33,579 bases of DNA, taken from a virus. Under the pieces are notes generated by a model, which saw nothing but the letters and a program-made list of their open reading frames with translations, made no database searches and was not told the DNA's origin. Below, piece by piece: positions 3,280 to 33,579 of this stretch (the stretch's first letter is position 1; each line of letters starts with the position of its first letter). Both the position numbers and the translations under genes were made by a program. Location: IMG/VR virus record IMGVR_UViG_3300035698_014505, positions 1 to 33,579 of that record. One strand, 5' to 3'.

Positions 3280-3528
3280 ATGGGACATGATAATTGGAAG
3301 AGCCCGATGCTTGTTGAGAGCATGGAGGCGTTTGATAAGAACTATCCGTACGCTGTTGACTACATCGGCGATTCGGATTACCCGGAGAGTTATCCGTGTG
3401 TTATGGTTATCGATCATGAGGACGGTGGCTTAGGTGGTGATCACTACGCAGTTTACCTTCACTATCCGCCAGCACAGTATGATTTAACCAGTTGGGTAGC
3501 TGGATTTGTAGCGGGGAAATACGCATGA
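3280..3528 (+). CDS. Hypothetical acidic protein, 82 aa
   Basis: A strong AGGAGG site lies upstream of ATG 3280. The product is rich in Asp, Tyr and Gly and has no membrane segment or cysteines. It ends in an ATGA overlap with the next gene. No family recognised. Confidence 0.55.
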   Translation: MGHDNWKSPMLVESMEAFDKNYPYAVDYIGDSDYPESYPCVMVIDHEDGGLGGDHYAVYLHYPPAQYDLTSWVAGFVAGKYA

Positions 3529-3871: not shown

Positions 3872-3949
3872 GGGGTCATAGCTCAGTCCGGTTAGAGCTC
3901 TTGGTTTGCAACCAAGTTGTCGTGGGTTCGAATCCCTCTGGCTCCACCA
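3872..3949 (+). tRNA. tRNA-Ala (anticodon TGC)
   Basis: A full cloverleaf: acceptor GGGGTCA with TGGCTCC (two wobbles), D arm GCTC/GAGC, anticodon arm CTTGG-TTTGCAA-CCAAG with anticodon TGC, T arm with TTCGAAT and one T-T mismatch, and an encoded CCA end. Reads GCA (and by wobble other Ala) codons. Confidence 0.93.
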
Positions 3950-9024: not shown

Positions 9025-9109
9025 GCTGGGGTGTACCGAATGGCAAGGTACCAGATTTGTAATCTGGCGGCGTAAGCTATTGGGGGTTCGATTCCCTCTC
9101 CCAGCTCCA
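9025..9109 (+). tRNA. tRNA with anticodon TGT (Thr), class II-shaped
   Basis: Acceptor GCTGGGG pairs with TCCCAGC (one wobble); D arm TACC/GGTA with GG in the loop; anticodon arm CCAGA-TTTGTAA-TCTGG; T arm GGGGG-TTCGATT-CCCTC; encoded CCA. Anticodon TGT gives Thr (ACA). The variable region is 14 nt with a small GGC-GTAA-GCT hairpin, and the discriminator base is T. Length is 85 nt, as in Tyr/Leu/Ser tRNAs. True aminoacylation identity is therefore uncertain. Confidence 0.88.
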
Positions 9110-12963: not shown

Positions 12964-13656
12964 ATGAACACAGTAGACTTCAGGCAGATGTTCATCAACA
13001 TGGTTGAGAACTCATGCAATGTAGGGCTTGTGGCGGCCGGTACCACTACATTCAAGCTGTTCCCCGGGATGTTCGAGCGTCCGGAGAAGGCGCAGTCGTG
13101 GATCGACGAGCCTAGGGAAGACGCATGGTTCATCACGGTTTCGAATTACGTCAGCGTCACGATCGGCGTTGTTACGTTTAGCCCACGTCACAATCCGCAG
13201 GGTGGATACATCTGCACGTGGACGTACGAGGGTGGCGGTAACCACGACCAGAGCGTAGGTGAGATGCGTAGGACTATTCTGTCCGCGCAGGAGCAAGCAA
13301 TGCGCATGGATGGTTTGAATAGCTTCGGCAACTACTATAACCGTATGCGGAAGCAAGAAGAAGCGCTCAAGAATGGCGAAAAATCTCGGTGGGAGTTAAG
13401 GGACGTCCTTGACGCAAAGGAGGACCTGAGAGCCCAGTTAGCGCAATCCGAATTGACCTTCCCCAGCCGCATACATGCGGAAATAGCTGGCCCAGACGTA
13501 ATCGCCTTGGCCGGCTCAGCGTACTCGGAGGCAGGTTGGACCGCGAAGGAGCACGAAGAAGCTAAGCGATGCAACGAGGGCGTAGACGCGCTGGCGGAGT
13601 GCAGAGAGGCGGATCGACGGTGCATGGCGGCGACAGGCGGTACATCATGCGTTTGA
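12964..13656 (+). CDS. Hypothetical protein, 230 aa
   Basis: First gene after a strong terminator; ATG 12964 has AGGAGA upstream. Residues 1-100 look beta-rich (WFITVSNYVSVTIGVVTFSP, GGYICTWTYEGGG). Residues 110-160 are a charged helix with KEDLRAQLAQSEL, and the end has repeated HEEAKRCNEG...CREADRRCM. No family recognised. The stop overlaps the next start. Confidence 0.5.
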   Translation: MNTVDFRQMFINMVENSCNVGLVAAGTTTFKLFPGMFERPEKAQSWIDEPREDAWFITVSNYVSVTIGVVTFSPRHNPQGGYICTWTYEGGGNHDQSVGEMRRTILSAQEQAMRMDGLNSFGNYYNRMRKQEEALKNGEKSRWELRDVLDAKEDLRAQLAQSELTFPSRIHAEIAGPDVIALAGSAYSEAGWTAKEHEEAKRCNEGVDALAECREADRRCMAATGGTSCV

Positions 13657-19282: not shown

Positions 19283-21274
19283 ATGACGCAGAGCGGTAGT
19301 AACTACCCATTTGGAGCGGGGGGCGCCGGCGAGGGCAGCGGTATAACGCGGTCTGGAGCTGCTAAATATCCTAACCCGTTTTGTGATATCGCATCGGAGT
19401 ACGTACCCCGGGACCTGAATACGATATTCGAGTGGTGCGAATACTTGTATCTGACAATGGGTACGTATCGTGCAGCTTCTAGGCGTGTAGTTCGTTACTT
19501 CCTAACAGAGCTGGTACTTGAAGGTGAGTCGGACGATGAGCGGGAGACGTACAACGATTTCCTGAATGATACGTTGCACATCATGCGAGTGCTCGCCGAG
19601 ATCGGCGATGACTTTATGACGTACGGTAACGTGTTCATTAGCATCTACTTCCCGTTTGACAGGTTCCTTATTTGTCCAAATTGTGGGGTAGCCTACCACG
19701 TTGATGCCATCGACTACAAATTCGATCCTAAGAAGATGTTGTATATCGGTGAGTGCCCAGGGTGCAAAGCATCAAAGGTAGAGTTTATACGTGAGGACCG
19801 TAGGTCGCCGGATAAAGAGCGTGTGACGATTACACGTTGGAATCCTAAACAGATGCGTCTGCGTATTCATCCGGTAAGTAAAAAGATCGAGTACTTCATG
19901 GAAATCGATTCGGAGTTCGCACGGCGTGTCCGAGAGGGGCGTCCGTTCTACCTGAATCAGACACCGTGGTCAATGGTTAAGACGATCTGTCAGGAGAGCA
20001 AGGAAAAGAATCAGCCAATGTTTAAGTTCCGAGATGATGCGATTTATCATCTTAAGGATAGCACGCTGTCTGGGTTACCTATTCAAGGTTGGTCTATACC
20101 GCCCATCATGCCTAACTTCAAGCTGGCCTATTACATCCAGTTGCTACGCCGGTATGACGAGGCAATAGCCTTGGACTTTATCGTACCGTTCCGCGTGTTG
20201 TTCCCGACTGCGCAGAAAGGGCCCCAGGGTAACGATCCGTTGTCGACGATGTCGATGGCTAACTTCGTAAGTCATATGCAGAACATGGTTGACCGGAAGC
20301 GCAAGAACATTGCTGATATCCAGGTAGCACCTTTCGAGGTTGGCTATGAGATGATCGGTGGTGAAGCGCAGCAGTTGGCACCTAAGGACAGTATAGCACA
20401 GGCATTAGACGAGTTGCTTAACGCTGTAGGATTCCCGGCAGAGCTGTACAAAGGATCATTGAGTATTCAGGCATTCCCGGTAGCCCTACGGTTATTCGAG
20501 AAGACGTGGGGTTCGCTAGTGGACGGCAATAACGACTTCATCGCATGGATGCTTGAGCGTATTTCTCGTCACTTTGTATGGGGTGAGGTTACAGGCAAGC
20601 TGCGTAGTGTGACGCTGGCCGACGACATCGAGCGTAAGGCCCTGGCCTTGCAAGCTGCTTCTGGTATGGATATATCCAAGGGCACAGCCTACAGACCGTT
20701 GGGTGTTGATTACATGGAAGAACAGCGACGTGTGGTGGAAGAGCAGGAGGCTGTCGCCGAACTACAGCAGGAGGCTATGGAGCGTCAACAGGCTGGCCAG
20801 ATGGGCGGAGCCGACGGTTCGGGTGCTCCAGGCGGACCAGCAGGTATGCCCGGCGGTCCAGGCGGCGAGGCCGGTGCTACACCGGGTGACGTTTATGAGC
20901 AGGGTAAACAGATGGCTCAACAGTTGTTGATCCAGACCCCTGAGAATATGCGACGTGGTGAATTGATCAAGATCAAGCACAGTAATCCTACGCTGCATGC
21001 AATCGTCATACAGGAGATGGACAGCATGCGCCAGCAGATGGCGAGTGAGGGCCAGGCTATGATGATGGAGCAGGCTAAGCAGGGTTCAGCTGTCATACCG
21101 AACGAGGCGCATAACATGCCGAGTCCAATGGCTATAGGCCTCATGCTATCAGATCAGATTTGTGAATACAACCGCGGTGATCTGCGCAAGATTGCGATGC
21201 AGATGAAGCGAAAAGAGCATGGCTCTAAGGACGCATTTCATTTTGTATATGGTAAGATACGAGGATGGTTCTAA
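19283..21274 (+). CDS. Phage portal protein
   Basis: The 663-residue product has the size and layout of a portal: an N-terminal clip-like region (PNPFCDIASEYVPRDLNTIF), then the wing and stem with long helices (NFVSHMQNMVDRKRKNI; AQALDELLNAVGFPAELYKG), and LVDGNNDFIAWMLE. The IPPIMPNFKLAYYIQLLRR and SGMDISKGTAYRPLG segments are of a type I know from portals of large phages. Residues 131-134 (CPNC) and 158-161 (CPGC) make a zinc ribbon inserted in the wing region, which is uncommon. A Q/G/A-rich segment (about 500-545) precedes a helical C-terminus. It forms a twelve-subunit ring at the capsid vertex and channels DNA. Terminase and capsid genes are not in the window. Confidence 0.75.
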   Translation: MTQSGSNYPFGAGGAGEGSGITRSGAAKYPNPFCDIASEYVPRDLNTIFEWCEYLYLTMGTYRAASRRVVRYFLTELVLEGESDDERETYNDFLNDTLHIMRVLAEIGDDFMTYGNVFISIYFPFDRFLICPNCGVAYHVDAIDYKFDPKKMLYIGECPGCKASKVEFIREDRRSPDKERVTITRWNPKQMRLRIHPVSKKIEYFMEIDSEFARRVREGRPFYLNQTPWSMVKTICQESKEKNQPMFKFRDDAIYHLKDSTLSGLPIQGWSIPPIMPNFKLAYYIQLLRRYDEAIALDFIVPFRVLFPTAQKGPQGNDPLSTMSMANFVSHMQNMVDRKRKNIADIQVAPFEVGYEMIGGEAQQLAPKDSIAQALDELLNAVGFPAELYKGSLSIQAFPVALRLFEKTWGSLVDGNNDFIAWMLERISRHFVWGEVTGKLRSVTLADDIERKALALQAASGMDISKGTAYRPLGVDYMEEQRRVVEEQEAVAELQQEAMERQQAGQMGGADGSGAPGGPAGMPGGPGGEAGATPGDVYEQGKQMAQQLLIQTPENMRRGELIKIKHSNPTLHAIVIQEMDSMRQQMASEGQAMMMEQAKQGSAVIPNEAHNMPSPMAIGLMLSDQICEYNRGDLRKIAMQMKRKEHGSKDAFHFVYGKIRGWF

Positions 21275-26738: not shown

Positions 26739-29700
26739 ATGGCAGCGACGACGAAGTTACCAGAGCATCTTCGTGAATTTGACGACACGGACGCAACTCG
26801 GAACCTTATTTACGACAATACGCTTGAATCGATTAAGAAGCGTTTTCCAATAGAGGATGAAGAGTACAGGCTAGAACTATCCAATGTGCGGACCACCGGT
26901 CCTAAGTCATTTACCCTGGAACAACAGAAGCAGGCGTTAATGAAGAATCGCCATCTTCGTACCCCGGTATCCGGTAAGTGGCGTCTGGTGCACAAACCAT
27001 CCAAAGCTGTAATCGAGGAGCGTGATGACGTTGTGATGCATGTACCGTATTACACGGAGCGCGGTACAGTTATTTATAACGGTAATGAGTACAGTATCAT
27101 CAACCAGTCTCGACTGAAGCCCGGGGCCTACGTACGCAAACAGCGGACGGGCGAGATAGAAACACATTTCAACGTACGGCCAGGTACAGGTAAGAGTTTC
27201 CGTGTACACCTGGAGCCGGAAAGCGGTATCTTCAAGCTACAAGTAGGCCAGTCCAATATCCCTATCTATACGTTGCTTAAGACTATGGGCATTACCGATA
27301 AACAGCTCATGAAGTCGTGGGGACCGGAGCTGCTTGAGGCTAATATCAAGAAGCAGGATCCAAGGGCTTTACAGAAGATGTACCAGCGGTTCTCGGGCTA
27401 CGCCTACGACCCGGCGTTGAACAGTGATCAGCAGGCACAGTACATTATTGATTCACTACCACAGTTTGAGGTTGATGCCGATGTCATGTCCCGTACTATG
27501 GGTTTGAACGATGCCAAGGGCGTCACGGCCGATGTACTGCACAGGGCAACGCAAAAGATGTTAAATGTATCCAGGGGCGAGGAGCAGGCCGACGATCGTG
27601 ATGCACCTATGTACAGTAATGTACTGTCCATAGAGGATTTGATTCGAGAGCGTATTGATAAGGATGCTGGTAAATTATCGTGTAGCCTGATCTATAAGGC
27701 ACGTAGGGACAAGGGTCTGAAGTCGGTGCGCAGGGGTGCGCTGAACCCGTATATCGATGACCCACAGCAGGGTCTGTTGTTCGGTTCCAAGTTGGCTATG
27801 CCGTTGGAAGAGACTAATCCGTTACATACGCTGGAGCAGCTGGGCCGTGTTACTAAACTTGGCCAGGGTGGTATTAGCAGCGCTGAATCGATTACTGATG
27901 AGGCCCGGGACGTAAACAATGGCCAATTCGGTTTCATAGACCCTATCATGGGCCCAGAAGGTTGTTTTACCCCAGATATGCAAGTAATGACGCACAGTGG
28001 GTGGGAAAACTGGGATAATGTTGATGTTGATACTGAGTTTGCTTGCCTTGTCGATGACCGTTTGGAATACCATAAACCGTTTGAGTTGCATTTCGAAGAA
28101 TATGGTAGTGCTATTTATGAATGTCAAACTAAACATTTTGGATTTAGTGTAACGCGTTCGCATAGATTGTGGCTCCGCACGCCAGATAAACAGGCTAAAT
28201 ACCGTCCAGAGTTTCCAGGGACTATAACGCAACCGCGTCGTATCAGGGTAGGTGGGCATGCACCTTATTTGGGTATTGATGATCTTTCTGCCTTTTTTAC
28301 ATGGCCTGAAATATTAGATACTGGAAATGCGTATAAGACGTTGCCACCATTAGCTTGGGATGCCTGGGGCGCATTTATGGGATGGTTTGTGCGTGAAGGC
28401 AGTACAACTAGGCGAAAAGATGGCCAAATAATGGTTAGTTTGTCTACGCATAATGAAGAGTACGCAGCTAGATTTATAGAATTATTTACACGAATTGGTT
28501 GTAGACCGCAAATCATGCGGGATAATACTGGCCAGGTGCACGGGGTGTACGCCGTTAGGAAACAACTCGGGGATTACTTGATTCCGTTTGGTAAGTGCGT
28601 GGATAAATATTTACCTAAGGAAATTTTAGATGCCTCAGTATCGGCACGTGTAGCTTGTCTTGATGCATTATGTTTAGGCGATGGTAGGCGTAAAGGTGAT
28701 ACTTATCATTATACGACTACGAGTCGTCAGTTGGCGCTTGACGTAGAACAGTTGGCTTTTGGTTTGGGATATTCCACGCGTTTACGTTGGGAACGTGATG
28801 AACGGGATCAATCTTTATCAGGGGGTTGTTGGATTGTAGCATTACATATTAAGGAAGAGAGAACATTTACACCTGCACATATTCAAAGATTAGAGTATGA
28901 AGGTCCCGTTTATACTGCTACCGTTCCCGGTGGTTTATTATATGTGCGCAAGGGTGAATTTGGGGGACACTGGTCTGGCAATCTCAATATCGGTATTGAC
29001 ACACGTGCCGCCTATAGAACGTTTAAGGGCCGTGATCAGCAGATTTATGGAGAGTTCAAGAATCCTGTAACGGGCAAGTTGGAATACCTGACGCCAGGCG
29101 ATGTAGCGGGTAAGACCCTGGCGTTCCCAGGTGAGATGGCAAAGCCCGGGGCCACGGCAGCGGCCATGGTCGGCGGTAAGATCAAACGCATACCTAAGGA
29201 AGAGGTGGAGCTGGAAGTTCCGAGTACAGCACACATGTTTGCCCCACATACCAATTTGAACCCGATGCCCACTGGCGTACAGCCAGGTCGACAGTTTTAC
29301 GGTGCTAAGTTCTGGAGCCAGTACCTGCCCCAGGTTAAGGGTGAAGTGCCGCTAGTAGACAGTCTAATGGGTGACGGTAAGACTACGTTCACTGAGTTCT
29401 ATGGTCGGCGTATAGGTACTCTTCCGTCTAAGGTGGGTGGTACCGTGAGCATGGTGACTGACAAGGGTATTACTGTAACGGATCCTAACGGTAAGAAGCA
29501 TTTTACGGAGATTGTTAAGAATTTCCCATTTAACAGGCTAACCGGTATCAGTTACTTTCCGGCCGTAAAGCAGGGTGATGTTGTTAACGTAGGGGATATG
29601 CTGGCGCATTCTAACTTCACTGATTCGAAGAGTGGCGCGATCAACATGGGTATCAACCTGAAGACAGCGGTTATCCCGGCACGCGGCATGTCGTACGAAG

Positions 29701-32159
29701 ATGCATACGTGATCTCACAGTCGGCGGCCGAAAAGCTGTCTACTGAGCGTCTGTACGGATACGACCAGGAATCCAGGTACGGTGTGTCACTGGGTAAAAA
29801 CAAGTTCATGTCTGTGTTCCCCAAGCAGTTCAATCGTGAGCAGATGACTACCATCGACGCAGACGGTGTGGTTAAACCGGGCACAGTACTGCAGAAGGGG
29901 GATCCAGTAATCCTCGGTGTAGGCCCTAAGCTATTAACGAGTGCGGACGCCCAGCTGGGTAAATTGCACAAGGTATTGCGTAATGCACATACCGATAAGT
30001 CTGTAACATGGGACCATGTGTTTCCTGGTACTGTTACCGACGTGGCGTTGACACAGCAGGGCGCCAAGGTTAATGTGAAGAGCACGCCACCGGTGCAGGT
30101 TGGCGATAAGCTTTCATCTCGATTTGGGCTTAAGGGTGTTGTAGGTAAGGTCATAGAGAATGATCAGATGCCTAGGGATCCTGCTACCAATGAAGCTTAC
30201 GAGATGTTGCTGAATCCAATGGGTATTCTGTCACGTGTGGCACCCGCGCAGCTCATTGAAATGGCACTCGGGAAGCTGGCAAAGAGCACCGGCAAACAGG
30301 TACGATTGCCCCAGGATCCACCAGCAGAAGGCTGGGAAGCATGGGCGAAAAAGCAATTGCTGGATGCGGGTGTAGTAGAGGATAACCCGTTGTTTGACCC
30401 GAAGTCGGGTAAGACTATAAAGCCTGTAGGCGACGGTTTTATTTACATATCAGCGTTCCATCACCTGGCTGATAAGAAGCTATCGAGTCGTGGCGAACAA
30501 GGTAGTTATACGATTGACGATCAACCGGCAAAGGGTGGTGAGACAGGAGCCAAGCGTTTCAGTTCGATGGACGTAAATGCTGCGCTTGCGCACGGAGCTA
30601 CCGAGGTGATACGGGACGCGATGTTGGTACGTGGTACTCGTAATGAGGACTACTGGAAAGCGTTGAAGATGGGACGTCCGTTACCCGAGCCGAAACAGCC
30701 ATTCATCTATGATAAGTTCTTGAATACCCTGAAGGCCGGCGGCGTTAACATTCAGGAGAAGGGTGATACGCTGTCACTGCTGCCTATGATCGATGACGAT
30801 GTGAAAAAGCTGAGTAAGGGTGCGATTAGCAGCGGCAAGATGATAACCTCTGACTTTGAGCCGATACCTGGTGGTCTGTTTGATGTAGGTAAAACAGGCG
30901 GCATGGCCGGCAACAGGTGGACACATATAGATCTCGTGGAGCCCGTACCAAATCCGGCTATGGAAGAGCCCATCCGTCGTGTACTAGGGTTAAAGGTGCA
31001 GGAGATGCGTGACATAATGGGAGGCACCTCCAAGATTAATGGTATAGCAGGTGGCCGTGGCCTGGCAAAGGCACTTGAGAAAATAGATGTAGACAGTTTG
31101 ATCAAGGAACACAAAGACCGGGTGCAGAAAGTACGTGGTGCTAATCGGGATAACTCTATTAAGATCCTAGGTTATTTGAGTGCGTTGAAGAAGCAGGGAT
31201 TGCACCCAGCTAAGTGGATGATCACCAAGGTGCCGGTGCTCCCTCCGATGTTTCGCCCTATAGCACGTCTGGGAGACCTACCTCTTAAGGCCGATATGAA
31301 TGAGCTGTATGCTACGTTGATCGAGTCTAACAAAATGATTAACGATCTACGTAAGGATTATCCAGAAACTGACTTGGCCGAGCAGAAATTGAATCTGTAT
31401 GACGCTGTTACCGCAGCCTACGGTTTAGGTGACCCCATTGCTACTGAAGGCCAGTCTAAGCGACTTAAAGGGGCCCTGCGGCAGGTTATAGGTACAAGTC
31501 CAAAGTTCGGTATGTTCCAGTCGAAGGTTATATCCAAATCAGTGGGCGGCGTAGGCCGTGGTGTTGTAACCCCGGACCCTAACCTGGATATGGATAGCAT
31601 AGGCATCCCCGAGGATGCAGCGTGGAACGTGTACAAAGACTTTGTCATGCGCCGCTTGGTACGTCGTGGTTTCCCAAGTCTGCGTGCTGCTGAATTGATC
31701 GACGAACGTGCGCCAGCGGCTAAGGAAATGCTGGAAGCAGAGATGGCAGAGCGCCCGGTACTTGTCGACAGGGCACCTACATGGCACAAGTTCAACCTAT
31801 TGGCGTTCTATCCGCATATCAGTGATGGTAAGACCATCAGGGTGTCACCGTTAGTGACCAAGGGTTTCACCATGGACTTCGACGGTGATCAGGCCAACTT
31901 CCATGTACCGGTATCGGATAAGGCTGTAGACCAGGCCAAGGCTAAGATGCTACCATCCCGTAACCTATTTAGCTTGACGGACCTTAAGTCTATACGACAC
32001 GCGCCGAGTATGGAGATGACGATGGGCTTGTATTGGCTTACGCGCCAGGCTAACAAGAAGAGCCCCATTACTTTCAAGACAATGCAGGATGCGAAGGCCG
32101 CATACCGCGATGGTAAGATCGGGGCTAACGACCCTATTGTAGTTCTGGAGGATCAGTGA
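26739..32159 (+). CDS. RNA polymerase beta joined to N-terminal half of beta-prime, with intein
   Basis: GAGGATAGA precedes ATG 26739. The 1806-residue product is 1466 residues without its intein. Beta features: GTVIYNGNEYSIINQ (about 108-122), GPEG/LNIG around the intein, SSRFGLKGVVGK (about 1125), LNPMGILSRVAPAQLIE (about 1158). From about residue 1361 it continues as beta-prime: GGLFDVGK, VPVLPPMFRPI (1498-), RPVLVDRAPTWHK (about 1672), and DFDGD at 1713-1717, the Mg-binding catalytic loop. It then ends after MTMGLYWLTRQ. The beta-prime zinc domain is absent and the bridge helix and trigger loop must be encoded elsewhere. It copies DNA into RNA as part of a multisubunit enzyme. Its place in the virion block suggests a packaged enzyme, but a late-expression polymerase is equally possible. 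Confidence 0.9.
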   Translation: MAATTKLPEHLREFDDTDATRNLIYDNTLESIKKRFPIEDEEYRLELSNVRTTGPKSFTLEQQKQALMKNRHLRTPVSGKWRLVHKPSKAVIEERDDVVMHVPYYTERGTVIYNGNEYSIINQSRLKPGAYVRKQRTGEIETHFNVRPGTGKSFRVHLEPESGIFKLQVGQSNIPIYTLLKTMGITDKQLMKSWGPELLEANIKKQDPRALQKMYQRFSGYAYDPALNSDQQAQYIIDSLPQFEVDADVMSRTMGLNDAKGVTADVLHRATQKMLNVSRGEEQADDRDAPMYSNVLSIEDLIRERIDKDAGKLSCSLIYKARRDKGLKSVRRGALNPYIDDPQQGLLFGSKLAMPLEETNPLHTLEQLGRVTKLGQGGISSAESITDEARDVNNGQFGFIDPIMGPEGCFTPDMQVMTHSGWENWDNVDVDTEFACLVDDRLEYHKPFELHFEEYGSAIYECQTKHFGFSVTRSHRLWLRTPDKQAKYRPEFPGTITQPRRIRVGGHAPYLGIDDLSAFFTWPEILDTGNAYKTLPPLAWDAWGAFMGWFVREGSTTRRKDGQIMVSLSTHNEEYAARFIELFTRIGCRPQIMRDNTGQVHGVYAVRKQLGDYLIPFGKCVDKYLPKEILDASVSARVACLDALCLGDGRRKGDTYHYTTTSRQLALDVEQLAFGLGYSTRLRWERDERDQSLSGGCWIVALHIKEERTFTPAHIQRLEYEGPVYTATVPGGLLYVRKGEFGGHWSGNLNIGIDTRAAYRTFKGRDQQIYGEFKNPVTGKLEYLTPGDVAGKTLAFPGEMAKPGATAAAMVGGKIKRIPKEEVELEVPSTAHMFAPHTNLNPMPTGVQPGRQFYGAKFWSQYLPQVKGEVPLVDSLMGDGKTTFTEFYGRRIGTLPSKVGGTVSMVTDKGITVTDPNGKKHFTEIVKNFPFNRLTGISYFPAVKQGDVVNVGDMLAHSNFTDSKSGAINMGINLKTAVIPARGMSYEDAYVISQSAAEKLSTERLYGYDQESRYGVSLGKNKFMSVFPKQFNREQMTTIDADGVVKPGTVLQKGDPVILGVGPKLLTSADAQLGKLHKVLRNAHTDKSVTWDHVFPGTVTDVALTQQGAKVNVKSTPPVQVGDKLSSRFGLKGVVGKVIENDQMPRDPATNEAYEMLLNPMGILSRVAPAQLIEMALGKLAKSTGKQVRLPQDPPAEGWEAWAKKQLLDAGVVEDNPLFDPKSGKTIKPVGDGFIYISAFHHLADKKLSSRGEQGSYTIDDQPAKGGETGAKRFSSMDVNAALAHGATEVIRDAMLVRGTRNEDYWKALKMGRPLPEPKQPFIYDKFLNTLKAGGVNIQEKGDTLSLLPMIDDDVKKLSKGAISSGKMITSDFEPIPGGLFDVGKTGGMAGNRWTHIDLVEPVPNPAMEEPIRRVLGLKVQEMRDIMGGTSKINGIAGGRGLAKALEKIDVDSLIKEHKDRVQKVRGANRDNSIKILGYLSALKKQGLHPAKWMITKVPVLPPMFRPIARLGDLPLKADMNELYATLIESNKMINDLRKDYPETDLAEQKLNLYDAVTAAYGLGDPIATEGQSKRLKGALRQVIGTSPKFGMFQSKVISKSVGGVGRGVVTPDPNLDMDSIGIPEDAAWNVYKDFVMRRLVRRGFPSLRAAELIDERAPAAKEMLEAEMAERPVLVDRAPTWHKFNLLAFYPHISDGKTIRVSPLVTKGFTMDFDGDQANFHVPVSDKAVDQAKAKMLPSRNLFSLTDLKSIRHAPSMEMTMGLYWLTRQANKKSPITFKTMQDAKAAYRDGKIGANDPIVVLEDQ
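27963..28982 (+). mobile_element. LAGLIDADG-type intein in the beta segment
   Basis: Residues 409-748 of the preceding protein, 340 aa, sit between GPEG and LNIG. Block A starts at Cys409 (CFTPDMQVMTHSGW), block B has T472-R-S-H475, the homing-endonuclease blocks are AFMGWFVREGS and ALCLGDGRR, and the end is VYTATVPGGLLYVRKG...HWSGN748. Third positions are more AT-rich than in the flanking sequence, as for a recent arrival. The penultimate residue is Gly, not His, and the first downstream residue is Leu, not Cys/Ser/Thr, so normal splicing is in doubt. Confidence 0.85.
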
Positions 32160-33099: not shown

Positions 33100-33579
33100 A
33101 TGCTTAAGAAATACGTCAAGCTCAACAGTGAGCTGCTAAGTCAAGTTAAAAGAGCTTTCGTCTCTATGCCCGCGGGTAGTGATCCTGCAACGGGTGCTGG
33201 ACCTGTGGCTGGTGGTGGGCTCATGACACAAGCGCAAGCTGCACCTATGGGAGCACCTATGGACCCGGCAGCAGCTGGTGGAGGTGCAATGCCACCTATT
33301 GATCCTACAGCCGGTGGTGGTGGTGCAATGCCACCTATGGACCCGGCAGCAGCGGGTGGTGGTGCAATGCCACCTATGGACCCAGCAGCAGCGGGTGGTG
33401 GTGGTGGAGAACTTCCACCTGAGGCCATGGCTATGTTGATGGGCGGCGGTGAAGGTGGCGGCGGCGGCGATAGTGGCAGCAAGATTACATTAACGGTAGA
33501 CGAGTTGATACGCTTGATCGAAGGTGTAGGCGGTGCAGTCAAGGGTAAGAAACAGGCGCCAGCACCAGACCCAGCAGCA
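33100..33579 (+). CDS. Gly/Ala/Pro repeat protein, 3' end outside window
   Basis: ATG 33100 follows GGGGAGA, with no stop before the window end. The product starts MLKKYVKLNSELLSQVKRAF, then has four repeats of the form AMPPMDPAAAGGG, a Gly run, a short helix ITLTVDELIRLIEGV, and KGKKQAPAPDPAA. The repeats are Pro/Gly-rich and collagen-like in spacing, as in phage fibre or linker proteins. A minus-strand open frame over the same repeats is a composition shadow. Confidence 0.5.
   Translation, partial: MLKKYVKLNSELLSQVKRAFVSMPAGSDPATGAGPVAGGGLMTQAQAAPMGAPMDPAAAGGGAMPPIDPTAGGGGAMPPMDPAAAGGGAMPPMDPAAAGGGGGELPPEAMAMLMGGGEGGGGGDSGSKITLTVDELIRLIEGVGGAVKGKKQAPAPDPAA
33260..33410 (+). repeat. About 39-bp repeats encoding AMPPMDPAAAGGG
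   Basis: Imperfect tandem units with GCAATGCCACCTATGGACCC as core; unit length varies by whole codons. Confidence 0.7.

Follow-up and report, generated by a model that had tools for sequence, protein, structure and literature searches.

An intein lacking a +1 nucleophile in a phage RNA polymerase gene that joins beta to the N-terminal half of beta-prime

Full fusions of the beta and beta-prime subunits of RNA polymerase exist in Helicobacter and Wolbachia, and the gamma subunit of cyanobacteria retains the zinc domain of beta-prime. According to the accessible text of two papers, beta-prime is split in phiKZ-type and in cyanobacterial enzymes (PMC7598289; PMC8287921). In the phiKZ/AR9 type, of which a virion form exists, the split lies after the double-psi barrel, with DFDGD on one chain and the bridge helix and trigger loop on another; beta itself is made of two or more chains, unjoined to beta-prime. 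The cyanobacterial rpoC1/rpoC2 pair divides beta-prime in the same inter-domain region, and gamma is not fused to beta. As regards inteins, the RPB2-a/b/c, RPA2-a and RPC2-a elements of eukaryotes and algal viruses occupy conserved catalytic-cleft motifs, in two cases within the fork domain, and a Cys or Ser at the start of the C-extein is treated as a requirement of the site (PMC1635734). Formation of the standard branched intermediate requires a +1 nucleophile (Mills et al., PMC4031507). Type A BIL domains lack this residue, and for them a Cys1 thioester, Asn cyclisation and attack of the freed downstream amine on the thioester have been proposed; they splice poorly and mostly cleave, and one BIL spliced only once Cys had replaced its +1 Tyr (PMC4031507).

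We analysed a linear virus fragment of 33,579 bases from IMG/VR, referred to below as the window. It contains a single open frame of 1806 codons without interruption (Table 1), in which the Pfam domains RNA_pol_Rpb2_2, Rpb2_3 and Rpb2_6 (E=4.9e-37) are followed in the same frame by Rpb1_1 and Rpb1_2 (3.6e-21). The fusion of beta to the start of beta-prime, as proposed in the preliminary description, is real. That description had nevertheless overlooked that 340 of the 1806 residues belong to an intein. Two features that mark a two-barrel multisubunit RNA polymerase are found in the exteins: the beta-barrel lysines K376 and K384 (numbering from window residue 749) are invariant, and the Mg-binding DxDGD motif reads DFDGD, with its D, D, G and D invariant in 35 sequences. 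Since DFDGD occupies residues 1713-1717, the fused chain extends 89 residues beyond it and ends short of both bridge helix and trigger loop, elements that are carried by a partner gene in relatives; on alignment to solved enzymes the final match falls at about E. coli beta-prime residue 541. Direct alignment further showed a spacing of about a dozen residues between GGLFD and WTHI, where bacterial RpoC has a Cys-rich module. The early end of beta-prime and the absence of its zinc domain after GGLFDVGK, both noticed at the outset, were thus borne out.

Table 1. Positions of the fused polymerase gene, its parts and its neighbours in the window
Feature	Position	Strand	Evidence
Portal protein homologue, about 5.5 kb upstream of the fusion gene	19283..21274	+	hhalign probability 100, E=1.8e-70 to the Arash/Vibrio phage portal
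Beta/beta-prime-N fusion precursor with intein, 1806 aa	26739..32159	+	ORF, translation, Pfam
N-extein, beta residues 1-408, C-terminal GPEG	26739..27962	+	Bacterial beta match, best 8syi_C E=1.4e-15
Intein, 340 aa (CFTPDMQ...GGHWSGN), residues 409-748, HINT splicing domain and LAGLIDADG endonuclease	27963..28982	+	Pfam, junctions, fold
LAGLIDADG endonuclease part of the intein, motifs FMGWFVREGS and LCLGDGRRKG	28350..28877	+	Approximate limits
+1 codon CTC (Leu); Ser in kin inteins	28983..28985	+	Junction reading
C-extein part 1, remaining beta with flap, beta double-psi barrel and conserved lysines, to about residue 1340	28983..30758	+	Right limit approximate
Beta-prime N half without zinc domain, GGLFDVGK to last codon	30870..32156	+	Alignments to solved enzymes and bacterial RpoC
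Catalytic DFDGD loop	31875..31889	+	D965, D967, G968 and D969 invariant in 35 sequences (numbering from window residue 749)
ORF cut by the contig end; in relatives kept between the fusion gene and beta-prime-C	33100..33579	+	Matches L005:11693-12241; L005 beta-prime-C follows at 13098

A profile of the fused region matched 188 relatives in IMG/VR; 80 loci were retained for examination, some of which are near-duplicates, and most contigs are metagenomic. The N-terminal 408 residues, used alone as a scan query, found no relatives. Loci are numbered L001 onwards; L005 is the nearest relative of the window.

The intein interrupts the conserved beta motif GPEG/LNIGID (the slash marks the junction) in the catalytic cleft. 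It has Cys1, a block B TxxH, a block F VPGG and a terminal WSGN, and the block B Thr and His and the C-terminal Asn expected of a Class 1 intein (T69, H72 and N345 of alignment A4) are invariant. It does not resemble Class 3, as Cys1 is present and block F position 4 is Thr, not Cys; nearly all kin have Cys at this position. Pfam LAGLIDADG_3 scores 29.6 bits against a cut-off of 22.5, and two motifs with acidic residues (E150 invariant, D245 nearly so in alignment A4) are those of a LAGLIDADG homing intein. With phmmer the intein matched no PDB sequence, whereas fold comparison of its AlphaFold model (pLDDT 89.2) retrieved the TliVMA, PhoVMA and PI-SceI inteins as best PDB matches. In the intein-free L005 the site reads GPEG-MNIGID and residues 409-748 are absent, which fixes both splice junctions. 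An RNA intron in place of the intein was rejected, no Rfam intron being found within the window. The beta/beta-prime-N gene of Vibrio phage D181 has, elsewhere, a group I intron that carries a homing endonuclease (L003:9500-9780; RF00028, 100.7 bits); Arash and D69 have no intein at the site.

The residue following the intein is Leu in the window and Met in L006, in place of the Cys, Ser or Thr of Class 1 inteins, and canonical ligation is consequently not available to them. In this respect the window intein, which lies in a phage, also differs from the eukaryotic and algal-virus inteins cited above. Automatic alignment and junction reading gave 18 distinct inteins at the homologous site, with the pattern PE/C...GN/S, one codon upstream of the window insertion; the window (PEG/C...GN/L) and L006 (PEG/C...GN/M) share the same codon, one further downstream. 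Of 63 intein-free rows, 58 have Ser directly after PE; Gly occupies this position in L005 and, if the intein is read as spliced out, in the window and L006 too. By the same procedure, inteins proved common at active-site motifs of this polymerase family, and wherever +1 was clearly readable it was Ser or Thr, except in these two. A DNA-pattern scan for the intein end followed by any +1 codon recovered L006 and nine other matches, with no confirmed new member.

The family contains further insertions. At L009:8306-15703, one polymerase chain has three inteins, the third of which splits the catalytic loop (ADFDGN/CLDFD...VVYD/TMNF), where Asn replaces the third catalytic Asp and the intein apparently ends in Asp. 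Beta-prime-C genes carry +1 Ser inteins in the bridge helix (L008:15366-18326, L073:18684-20999, L080:17065-20157) and at the trigger loop (L076:16424-19495). A second recurrent beta site, LNPTG[IV]P/C...GN/[ST]R, is occupied in L104, L105 (LNPSGVP), L107 and L111, in ORFs of 1335-3033 residues. Inserts of about 300-450 residues that are not intein-like occur in the beta lobe near reference residue 218-230 in L011, L012, L062, L063 and L083; that of L062/L063 contains a HAD-like VDLDGT motif.

The window and L006 inteins group together as sisters with a support of 99; the inteins next closest to them carry Ser at +1. The order of the extein tree is (L006,(window,(L005,L007))), and intein presence at the site takes 11 changes over 51 rows. 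Intein-free phages thus separate the window from L006 on the extein tree, as expected of a mobile intein. Third-position GC is 0.33 in the intein versus 0.56 in the exteins, suggesting a later arrival. The two inteins share 52% identity (66% in the C-terminal splicing block), with a pN/pS of 0.42 and saturated synonymous sites, and both keep Cys1, the block B Thr and His and the terminal Asn. Given this saturation, a neutral 1-kb frame would not be expected to remain open for so long; the constraint might be due in part to the endonuclease. The exteins are under strong constraint (pN/pS about 0.3). The 208,908-base record of L006 contains one polymerase copy only, and the supply of function by a second copy was accordingly rejected: in L006 the enzyme is either made from the intein-bearing gene or lacking.

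In view of these features, the intein is most likely still able to splice, through a mechanism independent of a +1 nucleophile. Cys1 would form a thioester at the N junction, cyclisation of Asn340 at the C junction would free the Leu amine, and this amine would attack the thioester and ligate the exteins, in the manner suggested for type A BIL domains. Intein removal would yield a single chain of 1466 residues comprising all of beta and the catalytic N half of beta-prime. The window intein shares with type A BIL domains the HINT fold and the missing +1 nucleophile. In contrast to them, it ends in Gly-Asn and not His-Asn, which counts against the splicing reading, and it is a mobile, endonuclease-bearing element that interrupts a conserved enzyme, RNA polymerase beta, whereas type A BIL domains lie in variable, non-conserved host proteins.

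The main rival, which we regard as unlikely, is that Cys1 and Asn340 cut both junctions and leave the pieces unjoined. The mature enzyme would then be assembled from separate polypeptides, a beta-N of 408 aa, a beta-C/beta-prime-N of 1058 aa and beta-prime-C, like the split beta of phiKZ-type enzymes, which do function in that state; the missing +1 nucleophile and the tendency of BIL domains to cleave point the same way. Such a cut would, however, fall inside a conserved catalytic-cleft motif, all 18 allelic kin have kept their Ser, and the extein flanks join exactly to the intein-free sequence of L005, something not demanded by cleavage alone. Because the needed residues are kept and the flanks join to a natural sequence, we favour BIL-type splicing over cleavage only, with moderate confidence. 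It is less probable still that the intein is dead or decaying, so that the window and L006 copies could not be removed and the polymerase gene would be non-functional or tolerant of the insert. Loss of the +1 nucleophile fits this, as does the Cys to Thr change at block F position 4, which suggests that the window copy could be weakening; against it stand two diverged copies that are open at pN/pS 0.42 with their catalytic residues kept, the strong extein constraint and the single polymerase copy in L006. We consider it very improbable that the true junctions lie elsewhere and provide a normal +1 Ser or Thr: a Thr does follow the Asp on the C side in the window (WSGN/LNIGID/TR), but L006 has Val at that position, and the block A and block G motifs agree with the empty site of L005 on one boundary, by which any other was rejected.

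If nucleophile-free splicing is correct, a mobile, endonuclease-bearing intein lineage may have moved to a site without a +1 nucleophile, within a conserved catalytic motif of what would be a virion RNA polymerase, and may splice there efficiently, a class of true inteins undescribed in the papers that could be searched. We advance this broader proposal tentatively, as somewhat more doubtful than not.

The fusion itself is common to a large phage clade and not confined to the window. Nearly all of the 80 kept loci, on about as many contigs, encode it with the same alignment end position, and a separate beta-prime-C gene, homologous to Arash gp216, accompanies it on the same stretch at 75 of the 85 loci; among these, a Rhizobium phage locus (L004) has both beta-prime halves in one chain. 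The beta-prime-C of L007 aligns across the bacterial bridge helix and trigger loop. In L005 this gene starts 1,956 bases past the fusion gene, while only 1,420 bases remain in the window; its absence is thus expected, the window ending 1.4 kb on and short of the gene. Salmonella phage Arash, a complete genome and the nearest relative in culture, and Vibrio phages D69 and D181 have the same pair, namely a beta/beta-prime-N fusion (gp206 in Arash, 1525 aa) and a separate beta-prime-C (gp216). The complete Arash genome and the 187-kb D69 assembly show the order portal position, small ORF, fused gene and beta-prime-C, with the fusion and its end point shared by gp206 and its D69 homologue. A frameshift or assembly artefact near 32157 was rejected, as nothing was found in its favour and the same end and separate downstream gene recur on some 80 independent contigs and in the identical layouts of Arash and D69. 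The partner gene sought since the preliminary description is therefore found in relatives, and neither refuting outcome named there (a continuous beta-prime frame in another assembly, or homologues in which the two genes are separate) held, since relatives share the end point and carry a separate beta-prime-C gene.

The annotation of Arash, in the part accessible to us, names these proteins simply beta or beta-prime and leaves the fusion unmentioned; its GenBank labels give 'subunit beta' for gp216 (L001:21271-23091), although this is the C half of beta-prime, and beta for gp206, although beta-prime-N is included. A fused beta/beta-prime-N gene is also present in the isolate Desulfovibrio sp. 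An276, on a contig of 64 kb (L130, NZ_NFJC01000017.1), and may hint at the host of part of the clade.

The fused gene had been described as lying among virion genes, and a virion connection is supported by the portal homologue upstream and by the relative Arash. In the accessible virion proteomics of that phage, gp206 was the most-detected protein, at 3516 spectra, 128 unique peptides and 100% coverage, against 1210 spectra for gp216; the authors offer high expression and carry-over as an alternative explanation (PMC10585845). Arash and the window are about 33% identical. This supports, but does not prove, packaging of the fused subunit in the virions of the window phage. The window also encodes a tRNA-Ala (TGC, 3872-3949) and a tRNA-Thr (TGT, 9025-9109).

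How unusual is this arrangement? The split point of beta-prime is already known from the non-virion phiKZ enzyme (nvRNAP) and from cyanobacteria, whose gamma continues about 70 residues beyond the end point seen here, and the layout is widespread in the clade; neither is new to the window. As to the join of beta to beta-prime-N, the window has one ORF where the phiKZ/AR9 type has an unjoined beta of several chains, and keyword look-ups in the open-access text of PMC7598289, PMC8287921, PMC7481178, PMC10585845 and a 2026 jumbo phage review, which are not proof, found no description of beta joined to the N half of beta-prime only. The mReC phages are likewise tailed phages known from metagenomes, whose beta and beta-prime are bacterial-like, and a keyword search of the accessible text returned no mention of a fused subunit or inteins (PMC7481178). 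Their major capsid family PF07068 matched none of ten relatives, though no positive control gave a match either, and their terminase family gave weak matches in three of ten; with PF07068 not found in these relatives, identity with mReC is unproven.

Taken together, the locus can be read as encoding the precursor of a virion-packaged RNA polymerase, made of a fused chain and a beta-prime-C partner, whose intein is spliced without a +1 nucleophile; we hold the evidence for this joint reading to be evenly balanced. The 1466-residue chain would combine with the separately encoded beta-prime-C, which brings the bridge helix and trigger loop, into a core enzyme that, judging from the Arash homologue, may be carried in the capsid and would transcribe early genes.

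The fused two-chain core is another phage rearrangement of the multisubunit RNA polymerase. The well-studied jumbo-phage enzymes have no alpha platform, and joining beta to beta-prime-N could hold the core together. As the layout is apparently widespread and virion-packaged in one relative, an enzyme with probably two main chains could be purified and compared with the five-chain virion enzyme of the phiKZ type. The intein offers a natural comparative test of ligation without a C-extein nucleophile, with the 18 Ser-bearing allelic relatives and the two Leu/Met forms as controls.
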